64,000 bases of DNA from Ilex aquifolium. Lineage: Eukaryota; Streptophyta; Magnoliopsida; Aquifoliales; Aquifoliaceae. Both the position numbers and the translations under genes were made by a program. Positions 170 through 35,952 of this stretch are shown here, piece after piece (positions within the stretch are counted from its first letter, which is position 1; each line of letters begins with the position of its first letter). The notes under the pieces are model-generated. The model was not told the DNA's origin, did no database searches, and was given only the letters and a program-made list of their open reading frames with translations. The stretch spans positions 24,238,045 through 24,302,044 of the forward strand of contig OX637404.1 of NCBI GenBank assembly GCA_951799425.1. Reading direction: 5' to 3'.

Positions 170-1999
170 GGGTCTGGCTCGTCTACTGTTAGTGAAGTAA
201 CAACACATGGTGCTGTTAAGTTATACGGCGCCGTTTTGTCCATAAACAGAATCCACATAAGCATCTCCCCTAAACGACACGGTTTTGAGGTAGTCAGTAT
301 CTTCCCTAAAACTAGATGGTCAAACTCTTGCTCTTCAATTTTTTTGGGTAAGTTCCTTACTTTTTGACGAGTCCAAATTTGACTAGACCAAGCCCAACTT
401 GAATGGACCGAGAAAGCCCAAAGGAGATACTATTCGGAGCTGGGCCGTAAAACAATACGGAGGGCATAAAGGGAATTAGGCGGCCGTAAAACAATACGAA
501 GGGCATAAAGGTAATTAGGCGGTCGTAGATCAATACGGAGTCCAAAGAACCCAAGCCCAGGGACCAAGGGGCGCCGCCCATGGGAGGCCACCCGCTTGGT
601 GCCGCCCAAGGGGGCGCCGCCCATGGGGGCGCTGCCCATGTGGGCGCCTGCCTAGCCCTCTGGTCTCCTCCTCCTCCTTTGTCTCCTGACTCCAATGAAG
701 GCCCACTCCAACTCAAGCCTAGTCCAGCTCAGGACCCTCCCGACGGAATAGGAGCACGAGGGAGAAAGTATCGGAATACACACGGAGATCTAGTCATACC
801 ATAATTGTGCTTGTCAAAGTGGTGGAGTCCTACCTTAATTATACTTACCTAAATAGTAGTGACCGCCTCAACTCACTGCCTTACTAAGCCTATATAATGT
901 AAGCTCTCTCCACATAGAGGACATGTTTTACACACTACGCCTCCAGTACTTCACATACTGCACGATACACACATTGCTCTCTCCCTTGCTCCAAGCACTG
1001 TAAAACTCCTGAAGAGTACTCTTCCAGAGACTCTTATTCATCAATAAAGAACACCAGGCCACCGCTGCCATTCCCGAAAGTGGAGTAGGTCATCCGAGAC
1101 CGAACCACTATAAATCCCTGTGTTGATTCTCTGTTTACAGTTTTGATTCATTGATTGCCATTGATTGCTCGTTAATTACTCATTAATTGCATCATTATTC
1201 ATACTTGACTGTTGATCTTGTCAAAGACAATTTTGTGCATCATCACTTTTCATTTTTCTCCCACAAAATTACTGTGTTTTGTATTTACTGTGTTTCTTTC
1301 TCCACCAAACTCTATTGTGGTGGTGTAAACAGTAATTGTGAATTTGTATTTGTCTGTGTGTTGTTGCACAAAGAATGAAAAAAAATAGAGAGAAGCTGGA
1401 ACACCTCACAATTGCTTCAACAACTGACTACATGTCAAAAGCTCACAAGTGCCCCAAGATACCCATTACCCAATAGTGCAAGAAACCCATTTATTGCACC
1501 AATAAGTGCAAAGAACCCATTATTCATGAATGGATAGGTTAAATCCAATTGGTCAAAAATATAGTCTTGCAGAAAGAAAAAAAATGATGGATTGGTGGAA
1601 ATTCAGCTAAAATAAAGTATTTTTGAAATACTTCTCAACCCTTGAAGCAATTCGTGAAGCTGGAAGAGACACAGAGAGTAAAGTTTTGGGTCTTCAATTT
1701 GTTGTTATAACACCGGTTAAGAGAGAGAGATAGAGAAATTGTATGGCAAGAGAATGAGAGTGTAGAAACCCTCATATGGAGCTTGGCAGACGTAGAGAAA
1801 GAATGAAGAAGAAGGGCTTCTTGGCGTTTGGAATCTACATGAAGTTATTTACTGTGGGGATTTGACCATAAAACTATGCCGTTTAATGGGAGATCCTTAA
1901 TTGTAAGTCGATGTGACCATAAAATTGGACAAAACGGCGCCGCATAACTTAACAGCACCATGTGCTGTTACTTCGCCAACAGTAGACGAGCCAGACCCC
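170..1999. mobile_element. Non-autonomous Mutator-like element
   Basis: Terminal inverted repeats of well over 100 bp begin at 170 and end at 1999. The left end reads GGGTCTGGCTCGTCTACTGT and the right end is its inverse with a few mismatches, including the shared core CGGCGCCGTTTTGTCC. The same 9-bp sequence, TGTATTATC, flanks both ends (161-169 and 2000-2008), which is the duplication size of Mutator-like elements. No transposase ORF is present. A solo LTR lies inside at 365-1245, so the element without it was about 945 bp. Confidence 0.88.
365..1245 (+). mobile_element. Solo LTR of a Tat-like gypsy element
   Basis: The segment starts TGACGAGTCC and ends GTGCATCATCA, the same ending as the LTRs of element T1. 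It is flanked by the 5-bp duplication CTTTT (360-364 and 1246-1250). It holds a TATA motif near 892 and an AATAAA-like signal near 1045. There is no internal domain or second LTR, so it is a solo LTR, presumably left by LTR-LTR recombination. A GC-rich stretch at 560-650 repeats a GGCGCCGCCCATGGG-type motif; the proline- and alanine-rich ORFs there are artefacts of that composition. Confidence 0.9.
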
Positions 2000-2008
2000 T
2001 GTATTATC

Positions 2009-2970
2009 ACTCCAATCATGATTCCAATCATTTTAGATCGACCGGACCTACTGTATTGCGTTCTTTTCAAGACTTGTTGTCTCCACATGTTCTCGAAATA
2101 GAGAGAAAATAGTAATTTTTTATTTTATTTTCCACTTTTTTTTTTTTTTTTGGAGAGGGGGGTGGTTTTTTTTTTTTGTTATATCCAATTCTTTTTAATG
2201 TTCATAGGATGGCAGTGGACTCGAGCGGGGGACGGGAGAGTAGTCTTTATCTCCACATCCGCTTCAAAAATATTCATTTACCCTCGATCTACCCCTGTTA
2301 ACAGGAAAAATATTAATCCCCGTCCTCGCTCTGTAGGTAAATATTGATCACTGTCCTTATTCCCGTCACTGTCCCTGTCCATAACAACTAAATTATATGA
2401 TTTTAAGAAAAAAGTTCAAAAAAAATAAATAATAAAACCTCACAAATGGATCTGTAAGAAGAATAAAACCCCATTATATAACAAATAGATCAAAGAAAAA
2501 AAGAAAGTAAATTTTTTTTTTTGGTAAAGAGGAGTGTGTGGGTTTGTGATATTATATATATCTATTAATAAGTGGGGTGAGGGTGGGTGGAGTTTGTGAT
2601 ATTATATATCTATTAATAAGTGGATGGGAGAGTGCCTGGAGTTTTTGTTTTTGTGACATTATATATATGTATTATATATATAAGAATATATATATCATGG
2701 GTTTAGCAGGATGGATAGGGGTAGGGCGGGGATGAGTTTTAGTTCATTCACGTATAAGTTTATGTGGATATTTTTGTATACGTCCACTGTCCAATATTTA
2801 TAATCCATTCTCAGTTCAAATAGAACGAATTTAAACGAATAAATTATAGTATACCCCAATTTTTTGTTCATTAGTTAGGCGTGTTTGGCTAGATAATTTG
2901 GATTGGGTTAAATTGAATTGAAATTTAAAGTCCAATCTCATCCCAACCAATCCAATGGATGGCTCACGGG
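2009..2970. repeat. AT-rich spacer with a diverged ~50-bp tandem repeat
   Basis: No gene is seen. Three diverged copies of a unit containing TTTGTGATATTATATAT lie at about 2540-2680. Poly-T tracts lie near 2136 and 2511. Confidence 0.5.
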
Positions 2971-3374
2971 CAGGGGCGGCTTAAGGTAAATTGAGGCCTA
3001 AAGCGGTAATACTAAATGAGACTTTTTTATTTTTAGTATTATTTTTTAAAAAAAATATTTTTAATTTTTTTTAAGTCAGAGAGAGGATGTGATATTTTAT
3101 TTTTGTGTTTTAAGAGAGAGAGAGAGAGATTTTATTTATTTATTTTTAAAATTTTTGATTTTCTAATATTTTGGATTGAATTGTAGGCCCAAATTATTGA
3201 AATTATAATTTTTTGATTGGGCTTAAATTTTTTGGGGCCTTTTTATAAGACCTAAAATTTTCATGGATTTAAATTTTTTATGTGGACTAGTTATGTATCT
3301 ACAATTATGGGGCCTTTTAAAAATTTAGGTCCTAAAATCCATGCTTTTTTTTTAATACTATAGGGCCGGCCCTG
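2971..3374. mobile_element. hAT-type MITE
   Basis: The element starts CAGGGGCGGC and ends GGGCCGGCCCTG, so the ends are imperfect inverted repeats of the common hAT pattern. A perfect 8-bp duplication CTCACGGG flanks it (2963-2970 and 3375-3382). The interior is AT-rich and has no ORF. Confidence 0.88.
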
Positions 3375-3559
3375 CTCACGGGGAAAGGTCTCTTTTTCCT
3401 TCCAATCCTCCATTTGGATTTTATTTTTGTGAAGTGTGGATCCCATGCACTAATCAGCTTGAATGATTGCTGAAATCACATCGATTTGATTATAATTAAT
3501 ATTCATGTAACAAACCAGAGATTGGAGAGACATGATTGATACTGACGAGTCTTTGGAAA

Positions 3560-3732
3560 GAGTAATGTTATGCATCCCAAATGTGCAACTCAAATTTGCA
3601 TCTCAAATGAAGGGAGACCGTTGGATGAGTGGACCCCATCAACTTTTTTAAATGGGATTCACTCATCCAACGGTCTCCTTTCATTTGAGATGTAAATTTG
3701 GGTTACAAATTTGAGATACATAGTATTTCCCA
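3560..3732. mobile_element. Hairpin MITE, probably Mutator-like
   Basis: Nearly the whole 173 bp is one inverted repeat. Both arms contain CTCAAATGAA and GGAGACCGTTGGATGAGTG and meet near 3640. The flanks share TTGGAAA (3553-3559 and 3733-3739), extendable to 9 bp with one mismatch. As RNA it would fold into a long, nearly perfect hairpin, as small-RNA-generating MITEs do. Confidence 0.8.
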
Positions 3733-4206
3733 TTGGAAATGCCAGCTAGACAAAATATATGGATGCCATGTTGCCATGACACAGTATTGAATCAGTCCAC
3801 ACAAAGGAAATTGGTTTCCCAGAATGTGAGGAGACCAAAAGAGATACATATAATGACAAAGATAATGATAAAAAAATTTTAATTTTTTTTTGATAATATA
3901 ATTTTTCTATTATATTAAGAAATCTTTAATATAATAAAATAAAATCAAAAATCAATTTAACTGTCAAAAGAAATACGTATGATTTAAGGGATGACAAATA
4001 TGTTAAAGAAAAATCATAAAAAATTAAATTGTGTACTTAGAAACAATTAAGTTTTAAAAATAAGGACTTAATGACCTAATATTAAGAGGTATATACTTTT
4101 TGACCAATAACTTTAATTCCATGTTCTTTCTTACAATTTTCCCTTTATTCAATCATCTTTCTTAATACCTAAGCAAACGCATCCCGAGGGACTTATAAAT
4201 GCATTT

Positions 4207-4310
4207 TTTTTTCTTTTTTAGAGAGAGGAGTGGGAGACCGGAACCCTTGACCTCCAGAATGCAAAACTTTCACGGCAAGAAATAACATTGAATCAAAGGC
4301 CGTTGGTATT
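4207..4310 (-). mobile_element. Short SINE-like insertion
   Basis: A 104-bp segment sits between perfect 12-bp direct repeats ATAAATGCATTT (4195-4206 and 4311-4322). Read on the minus strand it ends in an A-rich tail and carries GGTTCCGGTCTCC, which resembles a tRNA-type B box. Long target duplication, A-tail and B-box-like motif together suggest a tRNA-derived SINE, perhaps 5' truncated. Confidence 0.65.
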
Positions 4311-5043
4311 ATAAATGCATTTAAGTACCATAATTAGACTAATTAAATACATTTGTAGTATTAATTGTCGAAAAACAATCATACCAATATCTAAATTTCT
4401 GTTCGTTAATTTGAACCCAATTCTTTCTCAACGTGTGTGTGTGTGATTGAGCCCAATAGTTCATGGACAGCAACATAATGTTGGCAATCGAATAGCAGCC
4501 AAGCCAAAGGCAGGAGGATGGGGGAACATAATCGCTTCCCCCACATTAACTATTAACCAGTTCGATGAAGACTCCTATCTAACCACCCCGCTTATGGAGA
4601 TGATGGAGAAGTTTACTCTACGTGTTTACTTCGTAACCATCCATGACATACATTATCAGAGAGAGAGAGATACCTCATGCATGATTTGCTTCAGAGACCT
4701 TACAGGTACAAAATTTCTTCCGCCCCAGAACACTTGTACGAAGCCTTTGCCCCTCTCTCTCCGAGGTGGTGAAAAAAAACAAAACGATTTCAAATTGGTG
4801 AGGTCAGCGTTTGGTGATAGCATATTTGGCCTTTATATGAAAGAAACTACCTATGCCTATATGTGAATGCGATTGGATTGGTTGTGTGGCTTCTAATAGA
4901 ACACGCAGAGAGAGAGAGAGAGAGAAGGCTGACAATGGAAGCTTTTGATCGGTGGCGGCTGGGTTTTAGGTTTAGGGTTTGGCAAGTGTAGAAGAAAAGA
5001 CTGGTCAGGGCATTGGGTTGGGATAGTCGAGATATTTTATAAA
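4311..5043. other. Spacer with no recognised gene
   Basis: A 139-codon ORF at 4447-4866 has no recognisable domain, and the region shows no exon pattern I can defend. A (GA)n tract lies at about 4907-4925. Confidence 0.4.
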
Positions 5044-5072
5044 CTAGTTGATGCACACGTGCGTTGCACGTG
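5044..5072 (-). other. Helitron 3' terminus: hairpin plus CTAG
   Basis: On the minus strand CACGTGC and GCACGTG pair as a 7-bp stem around a 3-base loop (5056-5072). Eight bases later comes the terminal CTAG (5044-5047), followed by T. Hairpin, spacing and CTRR end match the Helitron 3' consensus. Confidence 0.9.
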
Positions 5073-5103
5073 GACCATTTTGAGTGTACCTGTTATATTA
5101 GAG

Positions 5104-6479
5104 ATTTCTCTAAACTTCAAAATCCCACTAAACAAGTACAAAGCAGCAAAGTCCAATGCACTTATTGACCAAAAAACATTGTAAATGCATACCTAGAAAA
5201 TAGTAAGAAGGTTATTCGTGCACTTAGTACAAAAAAAAAAAAAAAAAAAAAACTACTCGTCCATTATAGAAACACTTGTCCAAACTCATTAACCAGCAGA
5301 GATCAATAATTCAATTCCATTTGTTTATTTCTTGAAGAATTTGAAACTTTTATAGATGACAATCATAAGCACAATGTCTGAAAGTTTTTCAAAGACTTGT
5401 CATTCCATTCGTTAGTTTGCTATTGTATCCATAGAAGCCATGAAATCTGCTGTAAGGATATTCCACAACTCTTAAATGAAGTCTTGATTTTCTGCGAATA
5501 AGAACAATGGCAGAAAAAAATCTTAAAATCTTAAAAGCTGCATTGCCATATTGTTATTTTTTAAAGAACAATGAAATAGGTCTGTACCACAGTAAAATGT
5601 AATTTTATATATATATATATATATATTGCAGTTGAAATGTGAAAAATCATGAACTACCATAAACCATACATTTATTGTTTCTTTGTCAGCTTTCATACAA
5701 AGGTTTTGAACCTTTTTATTATTAGATGTCCACAATGAGTTAAGTGGTATGCATTGCTTAGTGTTCACCAAAAAACAAACATATAGTTAATAACCAAGAA
5801 TTAAAATAAGCTTTTCATCAACTATACTCATCTAATTCAACAAAGTAATTAGACAACACAATTAGTATACTCACCTGATTCATAATTCTTCATTGTCTTT
5901 AGAGCTCTCATAAGTAGGATTCTCGTAAATATTGGACTCTTTAGATGCCTTTAGCTCATATATACATAGGCTGATCTGTTTGTGGACCATTGAAACCACC
6001 CATGGCTCAAGTGTCTAGTATATACCATTGACGGTCCTTAATCATGTATCTAATAAGACGTTTTGATGACCAAAGTAAAAAGTCGTTGGATCAGACAACA
6101 GTTCATCAATTTAAAGAGTTAATACAAGTAAACTTCTAGCAATCCAGGATTGTTAATTTTTCACAATCCACCAATCGTAAGATGCTTAATACCTAAAGCT
6201 AATAGCCTACTATAGCTGCCCTCTTTTTTAAGTATGTCCAAGGAAGAGACTAAATGAAGCATGATGATCACAAAGGTCCCTATTTGTGCTTCAATTCACT
6301 GAATTCTCGATTTTTAACATTTTAAGCATCATGTTCTTGGGGTATCACAGCATCACAGTCCTAAGGAGCCATATCGGTAATATCTGGTGTGCCAATTTGA
6401 AAAATACTGTCAAAAAATAAAAGCATAATATTAAGTATTATCTGAAATAAAGTAAGGCCTCTCCAAAAATGCTTTATAC
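5104..6479. other. Helitron interior without a recognised gene
   Basis: This is the 3' part of the Helitron. It has a poly-A tract near 5230, a (TA)n tract at about 5606-5626, and no protein similarity I can recognise on either strand. Confidence 0.4.
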
Positions 6480-6885
6480 CTCCATCTGGACACGCATTGT
6501 CTCTAACAAGCCAACAATACCAGGTGTGTGTTGAGACTGAGTCACAGGATGTTCGCTCTTACTCCGTCCATGCTTCCGCATCTGTTTGGACTTTCTTTCT
6601 TTCTTTTTCTCCTTTGATGGTACAATGAGGCCCCTGTTTGTACAATGATTACAAAATATATTCCAGAGAGTTGCTGGCTAAGAATTAAGGGGAGCAAAAG
6701 GAAAAAAAAAGAAAAAGAAAAAGAAAAAAGGAAATATGAAAAGGAATAAAACAAAAACATTAACCATTGTCAAATTAAATGAATGTATATTCACAAGCCA
6801 AGACAAGGGGAAGCATACCCTGAAGCCCCTGCAGCAGGCAACAGGATTTCATATGCAGTTTCACGGTGATCATCATCTGTAATAC
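6480..6885 (-). pseudogene. Captured fragment of a PATROL1/Munc13-like (DUF810) gene
   Basis: Two exons are visible on the minus strand. The first (6885-6819) encodes GITDDDHRETAYEILLPAAG. The second (6633-6480) encodes LIVPSKEKKKERKSKQ, a lysine-rich linker, and GIVGLLETMRVQME. They join in phase across an intron at 6634-6818 with GT donor and AG acceptor. Order and wording match the N-terminal part of plant PATROL1-type proteins, which act in vesicle trafficking of plasma-membrane proton ATPase. The full protein is around 1,100 residues; only about 73 are here. A GT follows the second exon at 6479, but no next exon was found. No stop lies within the two exons. Confidence 0.8.
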
Positions 6886-7146
6886 CTGGATTGAAAAAAA
6901 GGATGTTTAAACATTACGTATTGTGTTCCAAACTTTTAGCATAAGAGAAAAACAAATATCACATCTCATTCATAAGTCATGACTTTGCCAGATTCATTTT
7001 GCTCCAAGCACATAAATTATAAAATGACAAATCATGAAGGTCTGGTAAATAGTTCTAATACGAAATCACCAAGCAACTCAGAATTGAACAAATCGAAATA
7101 TTTGCAACTGAAACAAAGTAAAGGAATGCAATAAAAATCAACTTAC

Positions 7147-7205
7147 ATCGCCAACACCAAGAACTTTGGGAGGTGAAAAACTGAAATATGGGCGCGAAAA
7201 CAGAG
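7147..7205 (-). pseudogene. Exon-like fragment of unknown origin
   Basis: On the minus strand this 59-bp piece lies between an AG acceptor and a GTAAGT donor. One frame is open and reads LFSRPYFSFSPPKVLGVGD. It does not join in phase with the PATROL1-like exon downstream. I do not recognise the parent gene; it may be another captured exon. Confidence 0.25.
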
Positions 7206-7559
7206 CTGGAATTCACAGGATCATGGAATTAAAAGAAAAAAATGACAACCTTCACAGAGCAAACCAAATCAATAGCCTAAATGCTGATAAATGCATAAAT
7301 TTTAAATGGAAAAATGCATAAATTTTCTAACTGACAGAGTGTCCTAATACTTTTTAGTATCCTAGAAGCTGTAAGCTGACAAATGCTTTCAAGAAGCTCT
7401 AAGTGTCTATTTTCTAGATTACCTTAGATGCACCTTGGCAGATCATCTAGACATTGACTCCATTGGTGCGAGGGACATGAAAGACCTGCCACAAACCAAA
7501 GAATCAGGAATAAATGGTAGTAGTTGTAAAGAAAAGGGACAGCTGGATGGTGTTGAAAC

Positions 7560-7640
7560 CTGCAGAGAAATGATTGATCTGTGCTGTGGGAGATTCAGAA
7601 CTGCAATTTTGTCAAGTTCTTCCACAACATGATCAAGTTC
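7560..7640 (-). pseudogene. Captured exon of aspartate kinase (ACT region)
   Basis: The 27 codons on the minus strand read ELDHVVEELDKIAVLNLPQH, then RSIISLQ. Plant lysine-sensitive aspartate kinases have nearly the same stretch at the junction of their two ACT domains, where lysine feedback is sensed. The residues just upstream (EQ) also fit the family, so the coding match may extend a little past the apparent acceptor. A GT follows the last codon, but the expected continuation is missing. Enzyme activity is impossible from this piece. Confidence 0.72.
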
Positions 7641-8594
7641 CTGCTCAAGTAAGTACCAAAAGAGGTTAGAACTTACCAGTTGAAAATTCCCAGATACACA
7701 AGCATAGAAAAGGAGTTCAAGCAAATGTGCAAGCTAGTTTTGAACAATTGAAGCGAAAGTCATGTCGTAATGGAGAACTTAAAACTGATAAGTGTCATGA
7801 CACGAAGAAATCTTGCAAATTTCTGCAAAAATAAGTCAACATGCTTTATATAATGTAAAAGTGTATGCATACTGCACATCATTCGCATGCACAAAGATCA
7901 GTCAGCAATCATTCAATCCAATTTTTGCACAGATCTAAGTTTTCACTGTACACCAACAAGATCATTTGAGATTGGTTAAAAATGAATGGAGTATTTTCTT
8001 TTTAAACAATCAACATGCCAATTTTAGCAACTCTTGTAACTACAGCTATGTTATTCACAAGAATTATCATTTTAAATAGTGGCATATGAGGCGATCAATG
8101 ACTAACCTGACTAAACAATATTATATCCTCAAACAGGGAAAGAACCATACTGTTAGTACATAATTTATCAAATAAAAGCCCAAAAGCAAGGCAAGCAGAA
8201 AGATTTATAATGAAGAATCCAAAACATCGAACAAAGACAACAGATAATGAAAACAAATGCAACGGGCTGTGGATACAATTGCTTTATATACAAAATGAGA
8301 GCATGGCTATAAGAAATAAACTTTTTTCTTGGTCTGCAAATTTTTTTTTTAGATAAAATAGAGCAGATAAACAGCAAAAACAGCCCATAATTGGATATAG
8401 AGCCTTCTGTGATCCCAAGATTGGTTGCCATCCAACCCCTTCAAGTATATACAACAAAAACACAAACTTGTATCACGACCAGGCTAAAAAAACAACAAGG
8501 AGGACTGCTTGCTGAAGATGAGAAATTTGATAATCAGATAGCAAAAGAATAAGGACAACTATTTTTTCATATGCCTTGGCCCTAAAGGACTGAC

Positions 8595-10311
8595 CTGCAG
8601 ATGTCCCAGAGCATATTGGGCACGAGGCTTCGCCATAGAAGCTTCAAAGTCAATGTAAAATAGGTAATCACAGTACCTGCCACCAGAATTCAAGTCACAT
8701 CTACATATACAATCACACTTGTTCTAGATTCATTTTTTATTAGTTGAACAACATTTTCCATAATCATCCAGTTATATTCTGATAAAACTTGAGGAATAAA
8801 AGGAAAATAAACCTACACATCTTATCATGCCCTTTTTGGCATTTTTTGTTTATTTTTATTTCATCTTCGACAGAGGATCTTGCTAATTCAGGATACTTAT
8901 TATGAAGTCTTTGGAGAGAATCTCTTGTTTACAGGTGTTTGTCTCCAGTAATACATATGCAACTAAGCCACTGCACGTTTAAGACTCACTGTGGGCGAGG
9001 ATTTAAATTCCCCCAGATCCCTAAAATTCGGAAGATTTTGACTCACACTTTCAACATGTCCTCTCAATATTTTTCAGCAATCAAAAAGTAGGAACAAATA
9101 CACAATCACTTTTAGGTGAAAAGCAGAGAGTACGATAGTTTGTGATATGGGATATAATCATTTCATTTTGTCTTCTATAATGTTTCAGGTCATAAATTAA
9201 CACTTAAAAAAAGATAGAACTTCAGGAAGCAAAGAGTAAAAACATACAAAACAGTAATTAAAGGTATTTAACTATTTATAAATTTGTCATTTGATGAAAA
9301 TATAAAATTACTCTTTGTGTAGTGGGGAAAAAACCATTTCAAAGGCAAAGAAATAAAAAACAACTCAGCTTAAGGGAATTTAGAGTACAAATGAAATTAT
9401 CTCATTTCCATGTAATGTCCAAATGTCCATTCCACCTGCCTTACCCCCCCTTCCCCCAAAAAAATAATAAATAAAATAAAAAACACCACACGCACAATCT
9501 AAATCATTGAACATTGTGTTGGTAAGCCATGCTGCACATTTTCGAGGCTTTGAATATAAACCCATTCAACCAGAAGCTACAAAAGGATCTGTGGATGAAA
9601 ATCCACAACATTATACTTTCGTGAGTTCTACACATAAGGAACAAGCTATAAAAGCAAAGGCCATGGTTTGAAACCCATAACATTTACCCGAGGAAATGTA
9701 TACATAAAGTATTCAACTCGTGTGCAATAATAGAATTTTCATTCTATTTATAGGTTAGACCTTAGTTGCTTCTCCTTTAATTGCTTCGGCTTTCACATAT
9801 TGTTACGTTATGCCATGAACATATCACATTGCTTCCATTATTTTTGCAAACAACCATCTGCCTATATATTTCTGCAAAGTGGCATCCACCATTCCTACAC
9901 CTGTTCCAAAAGGAAATAGCACTCACTTGGCACTCCCCTTGTTGGAGGCATCAACAACCCGTAATGGACGTTTTCTCTGTGGTCGGCTCCCTATATGAAC
10001 TTGCATTTGGGACAAAAAAATATTCAAAGCCTATAAAAAAAAAAAGAAAAACCATTCGCAGAACCAAACTCCTGAAGTTACCTTTGACAAATTAATGCCC
10101 CTCAGAGCAAACACTACCAAGGCTTTGAAAAGTACTCCAGGGCCTTCTTCTAAAGTGAAGACAATGCTTGTCTGAGAATCGAAAAATAAATCCTCTTTAA
10201 CTTGCTTTCAAAAATATACATTAGGCTAGAGAAGGAGTAATACTATACCTTATGGGGCCTGTCAGTCCCAGGGATTATAGGTTCCCTTGCAAGTATCAGA
10301 AAACGAGTATC
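8595..10311 (-). pseudogene. Captured fragment of arogenate/prephenate dehydratase (ACT domain)
   Basis: Four exons on the minus strand carry the C-terminal regulatory part of an arogenate dehydratase, the plastid enzyme of phenylalanine synthesis. Exon a (10311-10249) reads DTRFLILAREPIIPGTDRP. Exon b (10171-10082) reads [20 protein letters not shown] and ends ALRGINLSK. Exon c (9994-9927) reads SRPQRKRPLRVVDASNKG. Exon d (8676-8595) reads YLFYIDFEASMAKPRAQYAL. Donors of a-d and acceptors of a, b and d look normal, and c-d joins in phase. The acceptor before exon c reads AT, not AG, so correct splicing is doubtful. The catalytic N-terminal domain and the last residues of the ACT domain were not found. 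Confidence 0.85.
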
Positions 10312-10398
10312 CTGGCCAATACATTGTAGAATTACACCAAATTAAGGAACAAAAACAAACAAAGGATATAAATATTATAAGAAAAGAAAATGGAGTAC

Positions 10399-10489
10399 CT
10401 GTTGAAGCTTCTCCGCCATCTTATTCGACATTGACTCTCCTTCCTCTACGTGTTCAGCCAGATGACATACCAGAGCAATATTCAAAACC
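10399..10489 (-). pseudogene. Exon-like fragment of unknown origin
   Basis: This 91-bp minus-strand piece lies between TTTTTAG and GTACTCC. Its open frame ends GESMSNKMAEKLQQ and would join in phase to the next dehydratase exon. The text does not match the dehydratase sequence expected there, so it is either a strongly altered exon or a piece of another gene. I do not recognise it. Confidence 0.3.
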
Positions 10490-10687
10490 CTAAAAAGATA
10501 AAAAAATATTCAAAATTAAAGATTAGATATAGAGAAATTCTGATAAATACATAAGTAGAAGGTCAAAATTTATGCCAAAATAGTAACGAAGCCGAAAAAA
10601 ATTGAACAGTCATCTACACGATTACTCGTCCTTTGATTGATCGTCCTTATCCTACTCTGCTTGTGATCATTGCAGTCGTTGTAGTGG

Positions 10688-10827
10688 TTAAAATGGAAAA
10701 GGATTTGAGACGGTGGACTCTCCGATCAGAGCGAAGGTCATGTGACCGGCCTTTGCGTTGGCCTTGACGATGTATTTTCCGATGTATCTGGTGCCTCCGA
10801 TGATTAGAATCTTGTTTTTTGGTCCAT
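10688..10827 (-). pseudogene. Captured 5' exon of a PCBER/isoflavone reductase-like gene
   Basis: The minus strand reads KILIIGGTRYIGKYIVKANA, then KAGHMTFALIGESTVSNP. This is the N-terminal NAD(P)-binding strand and loop of the isoflavone reductase / phenylcoumaran benzylic ether reductase family, which act in lignan and isoflavonoid metabolism. The motif normally reads GGTGYIG; here arginine replaces the middle glycine. The putative start codon at 10827 is one base out of frame with the homology, and a stop follows at 10688-10690. The remaining roughly 270 residues of such an enzyme are absent. Confidence 0.8.
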
Positions 10828-11179
10828 TTCAGAGAGGGAGAGGGTGTAACGGCTGAGAAGTAAATCCCAGGGCAGTGAATTTGAGAAAGGAAATAGGGAG
10901 AAAGAGATAGAGACACAGAGAAGGAAGATGAAGAGAAGCGGGTGTTAATTTGCAGGAGAGAGAGAAAAAAAAGAAGGGAGAAAGTAGGAGAGAGGGAGAG
11001 AGTGTAACGGCTATGTGAATGTGATAGAGGAAATAGGGAGAGAAGAGAGAAGAGAGAAGAGAGAAAGAAAATAGGAACAGAGTGATATAGGAAGAGAGGG
11101 AGACAGGTTAACGACCGGGAAGTAGAGGATATAAATGACATAATCAAAATGTTAGAGGATAAAATTGAAAATAAAATGT

Positions 11180-11210
11180 TTTTCACAGACTTTTTAAAGT
11201 AGTATAGATT
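11180..11210 (-). other. Helitron 5' terminus
   Basis: On the minus strand the element opens TCTATACTACTTTAAAAAG, preceded by A. TC followed by a TATACTA-like stretch is the usual 5' end of plant Helitrons. Confidence 0.85.
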
Positions 11211-11478
11211 ACTGTGATAATTCGTGTCTGAAAGTATAGTATAATGTGAATGATTTTAACAGAAACGTTGATGACCGTTAAATGAGTCTATTTATGACTG
11301 TCAGATAAATTTATTGAAGTCTACTCAATTTTATATTTTAATTTATAGATTAAGGGAGAAACAAGTGTCTTTTCATAAAAATTAGACTGAATTGAAAGGA
11401 AAGTTTAGAATGAGTCAAATTAAAAAATTTCTATGACATAACTAAATTTAGTTAATTGAGCAGTTTCCTCTTTGAAAT

Positions 11479-11962
11479 TAGGGGTAATAATCGTGTCGTA
11501 TTCGTGTCCTGTTATTTCGAGTTTATGTCAAATATTAATCAATCTTAATTTAACTCGTTTAACTAATTGTGTCGAGTCGAATCGACCTATTTATTTTTGT
11601 ATCGTATTCGTGTTGACCCACATATCCCGTAAATAAAAAATTTAACGCTCAGGTTTAAGTCTAAAATTTAATTGTCACTTAATCGAACCTATGCTCATAC
11701 TTTTTTTATAAACTAAAAATTAACTTAATAAATATAATAATAATAATAAAAATTAATATTTATTTTTATAATACTAGTTAAACGTATTAATCGTGTCAAT
11801 TTTGTATTGTTCGTGTTTGACACTAACTCGACTCATTTATTATTTGTGTTAATGGTTTGTGTTATTTACGAGTTCGTGTCGAGAAATAACCAACTTTAAC
11901 CCATTAATTTCATATTGATTTCAAATCGTATTTTCGTGTCGTATTAAAAATTACCACCACCA
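11479..11962. mobile_element. hAT-like non-autonomous element
   Basis: The left end is TAGGGGTAATAATCG and the right end is an imperfect inverse. A perfect 8-bp duplication TTTGAAAT flanks it (11471-11478 and 11963-11970). The interior is rich in CGTGTCG/CGACACG words in both orientations and has no ORF. A related element lies at 49069-49688. Confidence 0.8.
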
Positions 11963-11970
11963 TTTGAAAT

Positions 11971-13794
11971 ATGCAAGATCTTATTTTTTAAAGTGACTCT
12001 TTCATTAAGGAAATACCAAATTCAGTTCTTGTAAATTGGCTAAGCATACATATAAAACTACTGTGTGGAAATTTTATTTACTCGTGATGAAAAAGGGTTA
12101 AATTCAAATTACCTATGTTTGCTGTCAAGAGAAAATTGCACAACCAAAAAAATATTAACAAAAAGAAAAAAAAAAAAAAAAAGTAAAAGGATAAAGTGGG
12201 TGTAATTCTCTTTTTAATTTCAGAATTTTTAAGGCTCTCTCACTATAATGTCCATAAAATGAAAATAAAATAAAATAAGAGGCTCTGATTCCAATAATGA
12301 TTGATGATGGGTTGAGCTAAAGCTTATGCGAGCCTGAGGACATATTGAAACTTAATGAGTTCGAGAAGAAAGGTCTTCTCTTTCAACTGAATCGACTTTT
12401 TCCCTTCAACTTGCTTTAGCTCTGTCATTTTTTTTGTCCGAGTTTGTTTTGTAAAAAGTGAGTTTATGCACACAACACAGCGAGAGAGAGTGTGTGTTCT
12501 AGCCTTACAACAAAGATAGACCCTGAACTTGTTGACACGTGAAGATGATTTGCTGAAGCTACTTGATAAAAGAAAGCTTTACCACATTAGCCATCAATTC
12601 AACTCAGTTTTACAGTTTTACTTATAACAAAAGGAAAATTCTACCGTATTAGTATGGCCCATTTTGTACGATAAAATTATAATTTTAAAAGAAGAAGTTA
12701 TAATTGTTCAAGGGCGATAATGATCGATCACAAAAAACCCATGATTGATCATGAAATATGCGGTATCGATTTCAATATTTCATTATCAATCATGCTCTTT
12801 GAAATTAAAATTGTTTACCTATTGCAAGGAAAAGGCTTCGTTTGTTGCGCTTTCTTCCCCCATAAGTTGTTGGTGGTAGCTGAAGCATGTTGTTGTTGAC
12901 TGGGTAGCTAAATGAGAGTTTTGTCATATTGTTTGTCTTGAAGGATTAAAGCCGCAAATTTGGCTTTTTTTTCTTGATCGTAATTTTTTGATTCGTGTAA
13001 TTTCTTGGTTTCAATCAATAAAACATTTCCTTTCTTAAAAAAAAAATGTCATTTGAAGTTATAACTTACACCTCAAAAATTATAATTTAACCTTAAAAAG
13101 TTATAATTTTCAGTACCGGTATTACCGCTGGTACTGTAGAACTTCTAAACAATAACTAGCAAACTATGTGCAAACACGATGCAACATAAAATTCAAACAT
13201 TTAAAAACTAATATTATTATTTTAAACAATAATATTTTTTATTTTTAAGTCATGTATTTTTGAGAAAATTTTGTCTATTGTTTTTTAAAAAAATAATGTT
13301 AGAAGTTAATTTTAATTATCACAAAATAATAAAAACTTAAATAATTCAAGTTGTGATAGATGAATGATATGAATCATATGATAGAAATAAACAAAAAATA
13401 TATATATAGAGAGATAAAGATTCAAACTCATAACTCTTTTATTATATAATTTTTTTTAGATTATTTTGACGTAACACAATTTTACAGGTTGATAAAAGTT
13501 TTTTCTTTTGTAACAATATTTTCTTTGGATTTATTCCACGAAACAAATCCTGAATATCTACACCTTCCTGTTATCTATAGATAGATATAACTCAAAAAAT
13601 ACTAACAAGAATCGAATTAAATATATGAATTTATAATTTAATTTTTTGTATTGATATGTATATACAGATAGACAACTGCACATATTCGTTAGAGAACATT
13701 ATCCTTCAGCATCATGTAGTTATTTGCAAGATATTCCACTGCACCAATGGAACGAAGTTAAGATTTCACGGTGTACTTTAGACACTTAAGAATA
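11971..13794. other. AT-rich spacer, no gene seen
   Basis: Only AT-rich DNA with A- and T-runs (for example near 12165) is visible. No ORF, exon pattern or transposon end was found. Confidence 0.5.
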
Positions 13795-13799
13795 AGTTT

Positions 13800-14390
13800 T
13801 GATGGACCAAGCCCAAATGGCTCAATCCATGTGGAAAGTCCAAACTTAATTAAGAGCCCAAGCTCCTAGAGGACCCAGTAGGCCCTATGAGGTCCAAGTC
13901 ATTCTAGCCCATCAGAGAGCTACGCCACCAAGGGAGCATCACCCTTACCGCCTGGAGAGAGTCGACCTTCCCTCATCCTTTGACCAAGTCCTTTAGAGAG
14001 CACCATAACTTCTTTGCCCGTTGAGGAGAAGAGAGGTCACCAAGTTATTCAATTACTATTAAATTCGCCCCAATCCGTTATGATGGCTGGATCAGCTATT
14101 TAATTAATATCCATTATCAGGCGACTATTATAAATGTAAGCCCCGCCAACACTTGGGGGGCATCACACTCATTCTAGCATCATTCTCTCCTCACTCTCAA
14201 AAAACTTGTAACCATTTGCTCTCTCTCCACACCGGAGTCAATAAAATCTCGGCGACCCTTGCCATTCCAAGTGGACGTCGGTCACCTTGACCGAACCACT
14301 ATAAACTTTGTCTTCTCTCTCCCTCTACTTGACTGCATTTTATATTGCTTAATTGACAGGTGGTGTGCAAACCAATTTTGTGCATCATCA
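13800..14390 (+). repeat. T1 5' LTR
   Basis: 591 bp, TG...CA. It contains a TATAAAT motif at 14129-14135 and CAATAAAA near 14238, the expected LTR promoter and polyadenylation signals. Confidence 0.95.
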
Positions 14391-14393
14391 GTT

Positions 14394-14411
14394 TGGCGCC
14401 GTCTGTGGAAA
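14394..14411 (+). other. T1 primer binding site
   Basis: TGGCGCCGTCTGTGGAAA follows the 5' LTR after GTT. TGG would pair with a tRNA CCA end. The same site with one or two substitutions follows the LTRs of N1 and T2. I do not assign the tRNA with confidence. Confidence 0.8.
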
Positions 14412-14478: not shown

Positions 14479-15648
14479 ATGAATCACCTTGAAGACAATC
14501 CAGCACGAGAGGAGGAGGTTGCTCCTCCTCCACCTGCCAATCCAGTCCCAAATGCACAACAAATGCTGGACACGATGCAACAGCTTATAGCCCAGAACTA
14601 GCAAATTTTGTAGTTGATGCTGGGACAGCAAGGAGGAGCGCAGCCTGGACCCCAAGTTAGAGGAGCTCCACACCCCGGTTATCAAGGAGCTCCCCATCTG
14701 GGCGGCCCCTTGGGCACCCCACCTTTGGAGGTTCCCTTGGGCGCCCCACCTTTGCGGGTTCCCCTGGGCACCCCACATAGAGGGGCCCACGATGAGGGAC
14801 CTCCACCTCTTGCTCCCCATGGTAAAGACTCTCCTTGCCAAGAGGATGAGGGTGAAAACCAAAGTATGGGGCACGGGAGTCATTTCCATGATAATTCCAG
14901 AGGACCTCCTCTTCCTCCAAATCATTTGGACGAAAAAATTAAGGAGGTGCAAAATCAATTGGGTGATATCTTCAACGCTATGAAGCACAGGGACCGAGAC
15001 AGTGGACTACCTCGTAAGGCGAATCGACACACCTTTCAAACCTAACGTGGCTAACTACCCACTTCCTCAGAAATTTAAAATGCCATCCGTCGAGACCTTT
15101 GACGGTACGAAGGATCCACTAGACCACCTCGAAACTTTTAAGACCTTGATGCAGCTGCACAACGTCCCTGAAAAAATCATGTGTCAAGCGTTCCCAACCA
15201 CCCTGAAGGGATCCGCTCGACAGTGGTTCGCCAAGATCTCCCCCGCCTCTATTGGCTCATTTGCTGAGCTGAGCAGGTTCTTTGTGTCGCACTTTATTGG
15301 AGGACGCCGCCACCAGAAGCATGCCACCCACCTGCTCAGCATCAACCAGGACAGAGATGAGAGTCTGAGAAGCTATATCACTCGTTTTAACGAGGAGGTC
15401 CTTCAGGTCGAAGAGCCCGATGAAAAAGTCAGCATGACCACCTTCTTGGGAGGCCTCCGGTCATCAAGCTTCCTTTTCTCGGTGATGAAGCGCCCACCAA
15501 AGAGCATGCCAGAGCTGATGGCGAAGGCCCAGAAATACATGAATACTGAGGACATTACAAGGGCCAGACGAGGGAAGTCCTCTAGAACTGGGGAGAAAAT
15601 GAAGGAAAGAGACAGGGAGGACAAGAATGAGAGTAGCGACAAGCGTAG
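14479..15648 (+). pseudogene. T1 gag, 5' part, interrupted by element A1
   Basis: The frame opens at 14479 with a proline-rich stretch, hits TAG at 14599 and 14611, then continues through three 9-residue repeats of the type PLGTPPLEV (about 14710-14790, 27-bp period). A frameshift near 15000 moves it to another frame, which carries a clear retrotransposon gag domain: KFKMPSVETFDGTKDPLDHL, LKGSARQWF and FVSHFIGG. The gag matrix/capsid packages element RNA. At 15648 the reading is broken by the A1 insertion and resumes at 27155. Confidence 0.88.
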
Positions 15649-17263
15649 TGATTAATCCTAATTAATGCATGAATTAATTAAGTTAATAAGTCAATTGTGT
15701 TAGTAAAACAAAGTTAAACTAATCAAAATTGACCTATTAAGGGTTAGTGTGTGAATTAGGGATAATGCATTAATTGTTGTTCTTTTCAGGGTTTTATGCG
15801 TCAAAACTACGAACTATCGGGGAGCCAATTGCAACAAAGTTACAAATTCTAGGATAACAATTATTAAAGCTCTAAACAAAGAGAGATTAAAGTAATCCAA
15901 ATGTCATCTTTTGGAGGTTTGTGAATGACAACTTTTGGAAGCTTGTGAATGACAACTTTTGGAAGCTTGTGAATGTCATCCCTTGGGCTTGTGAATGGCA
16001 TCTTTGGGGTTTGTGAATGTCATCCCTTGAAGTTTGTAAATGCTATCTTTTGGTTGCCTATAAATACCACCCCTTTGTGGCTTGTAAAAAACATCAAATT
16101 TTTGCTAGAGCTCTTGGTTGTAGAAAACCCTCCAAGTTGTTATTTTCTTTGTATGCTTACTAGATCTCTCTTGGTTGTGGAATACCCTCCAAGTTGTTAT
16201 TACTTTTTTTGTATTATTGCTTTCTTTTATGGTATTATCATCTCTTGGTTGTGGATGACCCACCAAGTAGTTATTGTTTTCTTTTGTATTATTGTTTTCT
16301 TTTAATTTATTATCATCTCTTGGTTGTGGAATACCCACCAAGTAATTATTGCTTTCTTTTAATTTAAGTATTGTTTTCTTTTACTTCCATTGTTGGAACT
16401 TCCTTCTTCCCTTAGAGGAGTGAAACTCTTCCACTTTTCTAGAGCTTTACCAAAGCCGTGAAGGGTGGAACGTGATTCACTCATTCTTTTTCGAAGATCG
16501 GCTCTTTTTGTAATATGTCGAAGTTATATTGATGCATTTCTTTTATGCTTATCTTTAATCTTTATTTCTTCATAATGTCTTCCCATTTCATTGTTGTTTC
16601 TCTTTTAAGCATGAGTAGCTAAGCTTTTTAGTTGGCTAGTCCAAAAGGAGACCTCCATTTGGAAATGCTATTTCAACTCTTTTTCTCTCCTTCCCTCAGA
16701 GTACGGTGGTTCGGTTTGACTGGGTAGAGAGTGGATGAGATAGTGAGTCTTTGATATTCCGTAGACTTGTCACGGTTTATGCTTAGATCCTCACCCAATC
16801 TCGTCCCTAGCTTCCCACGAATCAATCGTTCACCTATGCTCTATTAGAGGAATGATTTGAGTTGAATTGGTATTTCCATTGGAGTGACCCCTAGGACTAG
16901 CCAACATTTTTTGTCCATTCAAATTTCACCACAAAACAAACCACAAACCAACTCCAACAACAAATGATTTTACACTTTTCTTGCACCAAAATCACCTTCA
17001 TGATGATACAACTCCTTCCCTGAGGAGACGACCTTGGAATACCACCAAGTAAAACACGACCTGCAAAAGTCTTCTTGCGCTTGGGAAGCATTTTTGTCCA
17101 TTTCGCACATTCCATTTCATACATTTCATTTCCACCACCATTCCGTTGCCCTATTTCCCACATCATTCCGAAGGAGAGTGACACTCCCCTACACACTATA
17201 AATCATATACACATTAAGGGATCATATTAGGAGGTTAGGAATAACAACGGTTTTCGTCAAGCA
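15649..17263 (+). repeat. A1 5' LTR with internal subrepeats
   Basis: Short repeats of TTTGGAAGCTTGTGAATGAC lie at about 15910-16010. Four copies of a 57-75 bp unit beginning CTCTTGGTTGTGG start near 16112, 16169, 16243 and 16318. No gene lies in the LTR; ORFs of 110 and 99 codons are LTR artefacts and recur in the 3' LTR. Confidence 0.95.
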
Positions 17264-23870: not shown

Positions 23871-25539
23871 TGAGGTGCACCATTTACATTTTTTACCAAT
23901 TTTTGTATAGAATAATGGGAAATGTGAAAATTTTAAACATTTTGGACATTTTTTTTTTGTAAAGTATCTAATATTGAACTATATTCCTCTATCCTAATTG
24001 TTGTGGGAGTTGTGATTGCTTGATCCTCATTTTGAACTTTGAATACATGAGCACATTATAGAAGTTTATCCTATTGCTAAGAGTATCACATACTTGTTTG
24101 CTTTTCAACTCATCCATAAGTGCACCATGAACTTGTAATTTTGACAATTTACGGATTGAGTTCACATTTAGTGCTTGACATGAATAGTGGAGATGAGTAA
24201 GAACCCATGTGAGCTTTTAGTACCAATCCTTGTTGGAGGGAGCTTACATTTACTCAAGGAACAATTTTTCAAATTCCAAATTTGTTTAATAATCTCATTA
24301 TGCTTGTTTTGGTTAGAGTGCATTTGGGTAGTTGATTGATTTGGTCTTGAAAAGAAAAATGCTCCCCCATGCTTATTTAGAAATGATTTTAGGCCATCTT
24401 TGAAATGTTTTGAGCCTTACCCTTTTTTTGTGAAATTTTATCTCTAGTGCCGTGATTGAGCCTTAAATTATAAATTCGTTTCCATGCCACACATTTGACC
24501 AAGCCAGTGCAAAATGATAAAATCTACCTCACCTTGGTTGTTCCTAGTGCTGAGTATGATAGATCATAAAAGAGAAGGAAGTATGGTGTGGAAATTCAAA
24601 CAATAGGGATGAATGATGTTGAAACTCAAAATAGTTGAAAAAAAGAAAAAAGAAAAAAAAAGGGAAATGTTAAGGAAAAGAAATAAAAGAAACAAATAGT
24701 GTGGTGATGGTGTTAACCTAGAAATCCCATAAAAGGGAAATCTGTTTGAAATAAAGGTCATTCATTCGGAACAAACCTCTTTGTTATCCTATATCCTTCA
24801 CTTCATTTACCTAGATATCACCCCAAGGCCTCATTACAACCCTTGAAAGTCCTAAATGATCTAGAGAACCATGGGGATGCATACTTTTAAAAAAAAAGAA
24901 CAAGAAAGGTTGATTTTGCTATCTAAATGCCCTAGCATTCTTTTCATGAGATTATGCCAAGGTTGTTTCATTTTCATGTATGAACTTCATTTTTGATTAT
25001 ATGTGAACATACTTTGTTTTGTGCACAAGATTCTACCTCACATATACACATGGAGAGCATGCCAGGATAACCAATGTGTGATTCATTGTTGAGAGACACC
25101 TTTCGTGAGTTTTGCATCAAAGCTTAATTTGGATAAGCCAAAGTAAATGTGAACTATGTTGTGTAAATGTTTAAATTACGTGTCTATTTCACACACATGC
25201 GAGTTTTTGAAAGGAAATGTGTAGGTGAATACTCTAGAATAGCATTTAAAGCTATGATGTGTTTCATGTGTGATTAGTTCAGGTGTGTTGGACAAGATTA
25301 TTGTTGGCATCCCAGTGCTAGTTAAGATAGGGGAATATGCTTTAAATATTGGATATAAGGAAAAGAAGTTTGTAGGTACCTTCACTGGAAACCTTCACGA
25401 GACAAAACTCGTCCCCTAGAGATCACCTAGGGGTTTAACGGCTTGTTGCATATGCTAAATGCAATCGTGTTATCTACGAAAGTGATGTTTTATGTTGTTA
25501 TTTATTACTAGAGACTAGTAATGTTTAAGTTGGGGGGTG

Positions 25540-27154
25540 TGATTAATCCTAATTAATGCATGAATTAATTAAGTTAATAGGTCAATTGTGTTAGTAAAAC
25601 AAAGTTAAACTAATCAAAATTGACCTATTAAGGGTTAATGTGTGAATTAGGGATAATGCATTAATTGTTGTTCTTTTCAGGGTTTTATGCGTCAAAACTA
25701 CAAACTATCGGGGAGCCAATTGCAACAAAGTTACAAATTCTAGGATGACAATTATTAAAGCTCTAAACAAAGAGAGATTAAAGTAATCCAAATGTCATCT
25801 TTTGGAGGTTTGTGAATGACAACTTTTGGAAGCTTGTGAATGACAACTTTTGGAAGCTTGTGAATGTCATCCCTTGGGCTTGTGAATGGCATCTTTGGGG
25901 TTTGTGAATGTCATCCCTTGAAGTTTGTAAATGCTATCTTTTGGTTGCCTATAAATACCACCCCTTTGTGGCTTGTAAAAAACATCAAATTTTTGCTAGA
26001 GCTCTTGGTTGTAGAAAACCCTCCAAGTTGTTATTTTCTTTGTATGCTTACTAGATCTCTCTTGGTTGTGGAATACCCTCCAAGTTGTTATTACTTTTTT
26101 TGTATTATTGCTTTCTTTTATGGTATTATCATCTCTTGGTTGTGGATGACCCACCAAGTAGTTATTGTTTTCTTTTGTATTATTGTTTTCTTTTAATTTA
26201 TTATCATCTCTTGGTTGTGGAATACCCACCAAGTAATTATTGCTTTCTTTTAATTTAAGTATTGTTTTCTTTTACTTCCATTGTTGGAACTTCCTTCTTC
26301 CCTTAGAGGAGTGAAACTCTTCCACTTTTCTAGAGCTTTACCAAAGCCGTGAAGGGTGGAACGTGATTCACTCATTCTTTTTCGAAGATCGGCTCTTTTT
26401 GTAATATGTCGAAGTTATATTGATGCATTTCTTTTATACTTATCTTTAATCTTTATTTCTTCATAATGTCTTCCCATTTCATTGTTGTTTCCCTTTTAAG
26501 CATGAGTAGCTAAGCTTTTTAGTTGGCTAGTCCAAAAGGAGACCTCCATTTGGAAATGCTATTTCAACTCTTTTTCTCTCCTTCCCTCAAAGTACGGTGG
26601 TTCGGTTTGACTGGGTAGAGAGTGGATGAGATAGTGAGTCTTTGATATTCCGTAGACTTGTCACGGTTTATGCTTAGATCCTCACCCAATCTCGTCCCTA
26701 GCTTCCCACGAATCAATCGTTCACCTATGCTCTATTAGAGGAATGATTTGAGTTGAATTGGTATTTCCATTGGAGTGACCCCTAGGACTAGCCAACATTT
26801 TTTGTCCATTCAAATTTCACCACAAAACAAACCACAAACCAACTCCAACAACAAATGATTTTACACTTTTCTTGCACCAAAATCACCTTCATGATGATAC
26901 AACTCCTTCCCTGAGGAGACGACCTTGGAATACCACCAAGTAAAACACGACCTGCAAAAGTCTTCTTGCGCTTGGGAAGCATTTTTGTCCATTTCGCACA
27001 TTCCATTTCATACATTTCATTTCCACCACCATTCCGTTGCCCTATTTCCCACATCATTCCGAAGGAGAGTGACACTCCCCTACACACTATAAATCATATA
27101 CACATTAAGGGATCATATTAGGAGGTTAGGAATAACAACGGTTTTCATCAAGCA
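25540..27154 (+). repeat. A1 3' LTR
   Basis: 1,615 bp, about 99.5% identical to the 5' LTR. It is followed directly by the target duplication CGTAG and then the resumed T1 gag. Confidence 0.96.
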
Positions 27155-35010: not shown

Positions 35011-35601
35011 TGATGGACCAGGCCCAAATGGCCCAATCCATGTGGAAAGTCCAAACTTAATTAAGAGCCCAAGCTCCTAGAGGACCCAGTAGGCCCTATG
35101 AGGTCCAAGTCATTCTAGCCCATCAGGGAGCTACGCCGCCAAGGGAGCATCACCCTCACCGCCTGGAGAGAGTCGACCTTCCCTCATCCTTTGACCAAGT
35201 CCTTTGGAGAGCACCATAACTTCCTTGCCTGTTGAGGAGAGGAGAGGTCACCAAGCTACTCAATTACTATTAAAGTCGCCCCAATCCGTTATGACCGATG
35301 TATCAACTATTTAATTAATATTCATTACGAGATGACTACTATAAATGTAAGCCCCGCCAACACTTGGGGGGCATCACACTCATTCTAGCATCATTCTCTC
35401 CTCACCCTCAAAAATTTTGTAACCATTTGCTCTCTCTCCACACCGGAGTCAATAAAATCCCGGCGACCCTTGTCATTCCAAGTGGACGTAAGTCACCTTG
35501 ATCGAACCACTATAAATTTTGTCTTCTCTCTCCCTCTACTTGACTGCATTTTATATTATTTAATTGACAGGTGGTGTGCAAACCAATTTTGTGCATCATC
35601 A
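35011..35601 (+). repeat. T1 3' LTR
   Basis: 591 bp, TG...CA, followed by the duplication AGTTT. Its TATAAAT (35340-35346) points toward the MYB gene, whose ATG is at 35953. Confidence 0.95.
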
Positions 35602-35838
35602 AGTTTAATCCCATCGAACTAATACGTGTAAAAATTCGAACTCAAACAGTAAGCTAGAAAAAATGAGTTCGAATCAATCCACCGTTAAACTATAATGCTG
35701 AACTATACGTGCGTGTTCAAGTTGATAAAAGTGGAAAAAAAGGACATCAAATCAAAGCATAGTCCATGAAATCTAGCCACACACAATCTTCCAACACTGT
35801 CAGCCTGTCTGGTATTCCTGAACTGTTCGCATCACTGC

Positions 35839-35845
35839 TATATAT
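35839..35845 (+). promoter_or_regulatory. Candidate TATA box of the MYB gene
   Basis: TATATAT lies about 110 bp before the start codon. The only other nearby TATA motif facing this way is inside the T1 LTR. Confidence 0.45.
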
Positions 35846-35902
35846 GTAAGAACTGTAAGAAGACTTTCCAAAGATCCAATTCCAACCTAATCACCCAATT
35901 CC

Positions 35903-35907
<5 letters not shown>

Positions 35908-35943
<36 letters not shown>
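35908..35943 (+). repeat. (CT)n tract in the MYB 5' leader
   Basis: About 18 CT repeats end ten bases before the ATG. Such tracts are common in plant 5' leaders. Confidence 0.9.
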
Positions 35944-35947
<4 letters not shown>

Positions 35948-35952
35948 CAATA

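Follow-up and report, generated by a model that had tools for sequence, protein, structure and literature searches.

A five-part mosaic Helitron carrying pieces of four host genes in Ilex aquifolium

How do pieces of four unrelated host genes come to lie side by side, in one orientation, within about 6 kb of a plant genome? The question is raised by a 64,000-nucleotide stretch of the Ilex aquifolium assembly GCA_951799425.1 (contig OX637404.1, positions 24,238,045 to 24,302,044; here called the window), in which a sequence-only reading had proposed a 6.2-kb Helitron at 5044..11210, with canonical ends and an A/T target site, carrying fragments of a PCBER-like gene, arogenate dehydratase (ADT), aspartate kinase (AK), and a PATROL1-like gene. 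The assembly comprises 800 Mb in 103 contigs, which are referred to by C-numbers; the window lies on C14, and element coordinate x corresponds to window position 11209 minus x. Our analysis confirmed that the element is a non-autonomous Helitron. It is a mosaic of five parts, in which the ADT and PATROL1 pieces derive directly from intron-bearing genomic donors and occupy internal positions. The PCBER and AK pieces, to judge from related copies, came with two older Helitron lineages and were not taken up by the window element itself. That the element carries pieces of four host genes therefore stands, but that it captured all four does not.

Helitrons are defined in the relevant passages of PMC6591975 by a 3'-CTRR terminus (mostly CTAG) and a GC-rich hairpin of 16 to 20 nt located 10 to 15 nt before the 3' end. 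The window element starts with TCTATACTAC at 11208, which provides the 5'-TC terminus of Helitrons and has an A in front, and its 3' CTAG ends at 5044 and is followed by T. The hairpin (17 nt, with a 7-bp stem and a 3-nt loop) lies 12 nt from the 3' end. The left end of the proposed span was thus correct, and the right end moved two bases inward. Genome-wide, the first 17 bases were found in 616 copies (310 and 306 by strand), compared with 1 copy (1 and 0) of the reversed control, and the 29-base hairpin-CTAG end, with one degenerate base, in 200 copies (102 and 98), compared with 0 for its control. Within the window, the exact 20-base 5' end and the 14-base hairpin each occur once; loose versions of the end motifs are weak evidence there, as the 5' motif is at chance level (1 versus 0.88 expected from 60 shuffles) and the 3' motif modestly above it (2 versus 0.23). 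On C1 and C2, a same-strand 5' end lies 2.3 to 10.7 kb upstream of 8 of the 32 listed 3' ends, with 0.26 such pairs expected, and other arrangements of 5' and 3' ends within 20 kb amounted to 4 pairs. In eight sampled 5' copies, similarity starts at TC, which is preceded by A in seven.

The flanks of the element (window about 2500-5043 and 11209-12800) are part of a segment that is duplicated locally, its paralogs lying about 46 kb upstream and 168 kb downstream of the element on the same contig. When joined, they match C14:24196459-24196751 at 90% and C14:24417281-24417567 at 84%, both without interruption; the right-hand paralogous flanks extend for 1.1 to 1.6 kb at about 86%. Neither paralog contains the element or a duplication, and only small differences are seen at the joining point, which reads A/T in the first and C/T in the second. 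Consistent with this, the longest word common to both 40-bp flanks of the element is 5 bp, so that a target duplication is lacking, and the insertion lies between A and T in the Helitron form A/TC...CTAG/T. A terminal inverted repeat is also lacking, as in Helitrons (agreement at 2 of 20 end positions). The end counts and the empty site together bear out the 6.2-kb Helitron of the sequence-only reading, which had also suggested that its ends could be used to find sister copies and an unoccupied site. Window 3569-3722 holds an imperfect palindrome (154 bp, 82%), possibly a foldback element. An open frame at 4447-4863, just outside the element, had no Pfam or PDB match, and an Rfam scan of 3000-14000 gave no match.

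The longest stop-free frame within the element is 188 aa. No Rep/helicase protein family was found in the element frames scanned (not all frames), and no Helitron_like_N match is listed inside the element, with 150 listed elsewhere in the assembly. This does not exclude membership, because non-autonomous Helitrons lack Rep/helicase. Many of the 150 scored matches over the cut-off contain stops, and some are located in frames above 1,100 aa; therefore, helper proteins may exist, and insertion into the clean A/T site would have relied on Rep/helicase supplied in trans. Pack-CACTA and Pack-MULE elements have terminal inverted repeats and target duplications, neither of which is present here. That the locus is not a Helitron at all, being instead such an element, a cluster of processed or segmental pseudogenes, or a set of neighboring real genes, is in our view hardly conceivable: we found no supporting point for it, introns are kept, the donors are unlinked, the ends are present in hundreds, and the empty site exists. 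Four complete genes adjacent to one another, which would have spoken against a composite element, were not found, as the source genes are on different contigs.

Relatives of the element were identified by a whole-element genome search in which 40 of 971 candidates were scored, yielding 68 matches; statements below that a part is single-copy, or matched only by certain loci, refer to these. From 5' to 3', the five parts are the 5' end with PCBER (lineage one), the ADT piece, the AK module (lineage two), the PATROL1 piece, and the 3' module of lineage two. Element 1-859 is common to loci on C13 and C14, and element 1-83 plus 375-859 is common to a C8 locus; these PCBER-lineage copies continue past element 859 into sequence that the window element lacks. 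Element 3407-4293 and 5067-6165 are common, to a varying extent, to Helitrons on C20, C3, C10, C2, C6 (two), C13, C4, and C19. The ADT piece bridges the two lineages. The termini of the relatives coincide with those of the window element, both at the 5' end (3 of 3 PCBER-lineage copies) and at the 3' end (7 of 7 copies read); T follows CTAG in all seven of the latter, and A precedes the 5' end in two of the three former. The C8 relative is complete (4,687 bp, both ends), and the C13 relative is about 6.8 kb, its 3' end aligning to the last base at 85%, although the scan detected no perfect hairpin there. These two are the only copies in which both ends were found, the others being known by one end only. 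The 5' module differs by 5.2% from the C14 copy and by 4.5% from the C13 copy, and the 3' module differs by 5.0% from the C20 copy. On C20, a Helitron_like_N match with one stop (C20:16323517-16323930) was observed upstream of the Helitron's AK module, at a distance of about 10 kb.

All four gene assignments of the sequence-only reading held in protein or structure comparisons, and parent genes for ADT, AK, and PATROL1 were located in the same assembly. The PCBER-like (isoflavone-reductase-like) piece, for which A622 is the best PDB match (E 1.3e-13), is common to the lineage that bears it. Its best donor candidate appears to be a gene-like locus at C5:41538940-41539059, whose 117-aa open frame agrees with it over 40 residues at 85% and which matches element 375-510 at 90%; weaker loci exist, for example, on C16. 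Within the part common to PCBER-type Helitrons, an open stretch of 31 aa (10414-10490) is flanked by AG and GT; it had no PDB, Pfam, or NCBIfam match, and a protein search gave no candidate. It was rejected as an ADT exon, given its location and an unconvincing low-stringency comparison with the ADT protein.

The AK piece matches the Arabidopsis aspartokinase structure 2cdq (E 1.6e-11), and its donor gene is at C8:424937-425038, with adjoining exons in the flanks. The gene matches element 3407-3646 and 3642-3798, and 577 bp of it are missing between the two. C20, C10, and the window element share this deletion, and that in C3 is nearly the same; a C6 copy lacks it, with an unbroken alignment to the gene over 922 columns at 94.5%. 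A single, earlier capture of AK is therefore probable. The window element carries a C20-like AK module; the AK piece begins 285 bp further upstream in C20, and the in-frame stop of the window copy is lacking there. An AK donor splice site first read at 7560 was discarded, as comparison with the donor gene indicated intron sequence brought in by the deletion.

The ADT piece matches prephenate dehydratases (1,171 matches in the protein search, 120 listed). Its 12-residue extension ALNIFLSQMQVH has a counterpart in only 1 of the 120 listed ADT proteins, that of Ilex paraguariensis, with which the spliced piece, extension included, agrees at 112 of 120 positions. The donor gene on C2 has more exons beyond the matched part, and the 2.55-kb piece is otherwise matched only by a weaker paralog on C3. 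For the PATROL1/unc-13 homologue, an I. paraguariensis protein is the best of 122 matches (E 1.2e-33, 91%); Pfam and NCBIfam scans of the PATROL1 pieces gave no match, and the identity comes from the protein search and the donor gene. Only the donor locus on C6 matches this piece, and it sits in a gene with ordered exons for residues 1-434 of the Ilex protein. Both the ADT and PATROL1 pieces thus appear peculiar to the window copy among the scored candidates.

As the sequence-only reading had stated, all pieces share the Helitron orientation and most splice sites are intact: 16 of 17 donor-gene exon edges keep GT or AG (ADT, 9 of 9; PATROL1, 4 of 4; AK, 3 of 4), the sole loss being the AK donor site removed by the 577-bp deletion. 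Because introns are retained, genomic DNA was copied. The donors are on other contigs, namely, C2 (ADT), C8 (AK), C6 (PATROL1), and, as the best candidate for PCBER, C5.

Table 1. Positions of the Helitron, its parts, and its junctions in the window
Feature	Window positions	Strand	Remarks
Whole non-autonomous Helitron, 6,165 bp	5044..11208	-	Termini, family copies, empty site
Target-site A before 5' TC	11209..11209	-	
Helitron 5' module, element 1-378	10831..11208	-	About this part covered by 14 further listed genome matches
PCBER-like exon 1 piece	10699..10834	-	About 7 bp before ATG (10827) and about 42 codons
Rest of 5' lineage part	10350..10698	-	Common to Helitrons on C13 (L014), C14 (L016), and C8 (L030)
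Junction Helitron/ADT, 4-bp overlap TTTG	10350..10353	-	
ADT genomic piece, element 856-3410, from intron into last exon	7799..10353	-	Donor C2:58398685-58401227
ADT exon a, 15 nt shorter than donor, in frame, acceptor kept	10249..10311	-	
ADT exon b	10082..10171	-	
ADT exon c, with 12-residue extension ALNIFLSQMQVH	9927..10030	-	
ADT exon d	8595..8676	-	
ADT last exon, cut off after FLRV	7799..7822	-	
Junction ADT/AK module, 4-bp overlap TGTC	7799..7802	-	
AK-bearing Helitron module, element 3407-4293	6916..7802	-	2.6% from C20 copy
AK exon piece ELDHVVEELDK..., cut by internal deletion	7563..7640	-	
AK exon VFHVPRTNGVNV-stop-MICQGASK, in-frame TAG	7423..7485	-	
PATROL1 genomic piece, element 4294-5067, 774 bp	6142..6915	-	Donor C6:32308908-32309670
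PATROL1 exon GITDDDHRETAYEILLPAAGASG	6819..6885	-	
PATROL1 exon GLIVPSKEKKKERKSK...VQME	6480..6633	-	
Helitron 3' module, common to AK-bearing Helitrons	5044..6142	-	
3' hairpin CACGTGC-AAC-GCACGTG, 7-bp stem, 8 nt before CTAG (5044-5047)	5056..5072	-	
Target-site T after 3' CTAG	5043..5043	-	

The joins between the parts bear on how the direct pieces entered. Besides the two 4-bp overlaps at the ends of the ADT piece, base-level comparison gave an overlap of 0 bp between the AK module and PATROL1 and of 1 bp between PATROL1 and the 3' module. When the same templates were joined at random in 200,000 trials, at least two of four overlaps of at least 4 bp occurred in 0.3% of trials, and a sum of at least 9 bp occurred in 1.5%. 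Because the junction overlaps exceed those of random joins (P = 0.003 to 0.015), break repair or template switching is favored over read-through of the 3' end. Where PATROL1 sits, relatives hold native DNA of 84 bp (C20) or 165 to 166 bp (C6, C13, C19, and C4). Read-through, in which the transposase bypasses the 3' end and takes adjacent gene DNA, has been shown experimentally for Helraiser (PMC4778049). For the window element we consider it very improbable, since the ADT and PATROL1 pieces are internal with Helitron modules on both sides, PATROL1 sits where several relatives have native internal DNA, and the two genes are on different contigs. We consider it highly probable that this is a rolling-circle Helitron and five-part mosaic whose direct pieces were joined by microhomology-assisted repair or template switching. 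The ADT and PATROL1 pieces would have entered Helitron DNA by such break repair or switching, in one or a few events.

Whether there was one event or several is a separate matter. Stepwise capture over several transposition rounds, in which ADT joined the lineages once and PATROL1 separately replaced native DNA, is a form of the preferred explanation with the same joining chemistry, and we regard its chances as even. Other copies carry AK and PCBER without ADT or PATROL1, and maize Helitrons are described in passages of PMC3288121 as gaining fragments stepwise; no intermediate with ADT only or PATROL1 only was seen among the scored matches. The ADT piece differs from its donor at 77 of 2,501 sites (introns, 3.0 +/- 0.4%) and the PATROL1 piece at 35 of 761 (introns, 4.4 +/- 0.9%). 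Nominally, the PATROL1 introns are thus more diverged, as stepwise capture would have it, but the difference is within error, and the values are compatible with the same age for both direct captures. A single replication-repair event, rather than one fragment per transposition, would instead have one strand switching among four templates, from a PCBER-type Helitron to the ADT gene (C2), an AK-type Helitron, the PATROL1 gene (C6), and back to the AK-type Helitron; this we think rather unlikely.

A further route would start from neighboring PCBER-type and AK-type Helitrons whose inner ends were deleted, the break being filled with ADT DNA and PATROL1 entering separately, which would leave one outer 5' end and one outer 3' end. 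The ADT piece joins exactly the two lineages, and hybrids of neighboring elements have been described for Pack-CACTA (PMC13317346, in the passages concerned). Head-to-tail copies are seen at C1:4799191-4799600 (L034), where a single base separates a Helitron 3' end (element 6126-6165) from a following 5' module (element 8-378). No remnant of inner ends was seen within the window element, and we judge this route improbable.

Several observations weigh against the preferred explanation, namely, a Helitron mosaic joined by microhomology-assisted repair or template switching. As to the ends, the second empty paralog has C/T instead of A/T, one of the eight sampled 5' copies has T in place of A in front, and the C14 PCBER-lineage copy has G there; a search over 6.6 kb gave no 3' end for the C14 copy, and one over roughly 4.9 kb upstream of AK gave no 5' end for the C20 copy. 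Among the scored candidates the composite has just one copy, which leaves any movement after its assembly putative. As to the joins, the junctions number just four, of which two overlap little or not at all, and the apparent overlaps may have been shifted by later mutation; in the AK-bearing relatives on C3 and C10, similarity stops earlier (element 4231), and about 1.3 kb, in place of 84 to 166 bp, precedes element 5067. The intron divergence of ADT and PATROL1 does not separate one event from two.

A protein made from all four gene pieces is unlikely, because PCBER has lost one base after its ATG, which puts the start out of frame (MDQKTRF and a stop), and AK has its in-frame stop. Comparison with the I. 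paraguariensis proteins gives 8 differences over 120 positions for ADT and 7 over 74 for PATROL1. Of these sites, 6 in each piece carry a window residue that is found in no more than one of the aligned proteins; one of the differing ADT sites falls in the extension, to which only a single protein aligns. ADT site 6 and PATROL1 site 47 are cases in which I. paraguariensis has the unusual residue, the donor genes of the assembly agreeing with the window. The element is decaying as a coding unit. The sequence-only reading had placed a promoter near the 5' end, from which a chimeric spliced transcript could arise. That promoter was not upheld: the PCBER piece starts about 7 bp before its ATG, directly downstream of the Helitron 5' module, so the PCBER promoter was not captured, and any putative promoter would have to be the Helitron's own. 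The predicted spliced chimeric RNA, if any, is probably non-coding or encodes only short ADT or PATROL1 pieces.

The element is a new one of an already known kind, the gene-capturing plant Helitrons, and is unusually well resolved. Like the maize helA Helitrons, it has several gene fragments and modules common to related copies; passages of PMC3288121 give 0 to 12 fragments per helA, with a mean of 3, and propose stepwise capture. It differs from them in its plant lineage (Ilex), in its cargo genes, and in that donors and both parental lineages are identified close to the base level. The bat Helraiser/Helibat system, as treated in parts of PMC4778049, shares hairpin terminator ends, an AT target, and captured host DNA with the window element but takes adjacent DNA by 3' read-through, in contrast to the internal capture from unlinked loci seen here. 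Pack-CACTA and Pack-MULE are likewise DNA transposons with host gene pieces in their interior (PMC13317346, same passages), but the window element has neither terminal inverted repeats nor a target duplication. Elsewhere, chimeric, alternatively spliced transcripts from maize Helitrons (excerpts of PMC4528327) and few Helitron captures in rice and Arabidopsis (excerpts of PMC2575219) have been reported, and, according to a 2026 review (PMC13317346), fragments from unlinked loci may be taken up by an additional mechanism yet to be discovered. Matching passages of an Ilex transposon paper (PMC11435385) mention no such element, and in the open-licence literature we found no description of the window element and no match to its end sequences.

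Much of the event order and the joins can be read because copies of both parental lineages, the donor genes (for PCBER, the best candidate), and the empty site all survive in one assembly. Repair or template switching is indicated by the internal replacement together with the 4-bp overlaps at two joins, and the question can be tested in sister species. That two of the four pieces were inherited from older copies also urges caution against counting fragments as independent captures.

Other features were observed in the remainder of the window. Positions 13800-35606 hold apparently nested long terminal repeat (LTR) retrotransposons, with outer repeats at 13800-14394 and 35011-35606 (94%). The inner LTR pair (1,616 bp; 15648-17263 and 25539-27154) encloses an open 1,311-aa frame with reverse transcriptase, RNase H, and integrase and appears to be a young insertion, as its LTRs differ at only 8 sites (99.5%). 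A MYB gene is present at 35770-37161, where two open pieces contain parts of Myb DNA-binding domains. At 59457-60103, a tandem array of about 12 copies of a 55-bp unit adjoins a minus-strand reverse-transcriptase frame.

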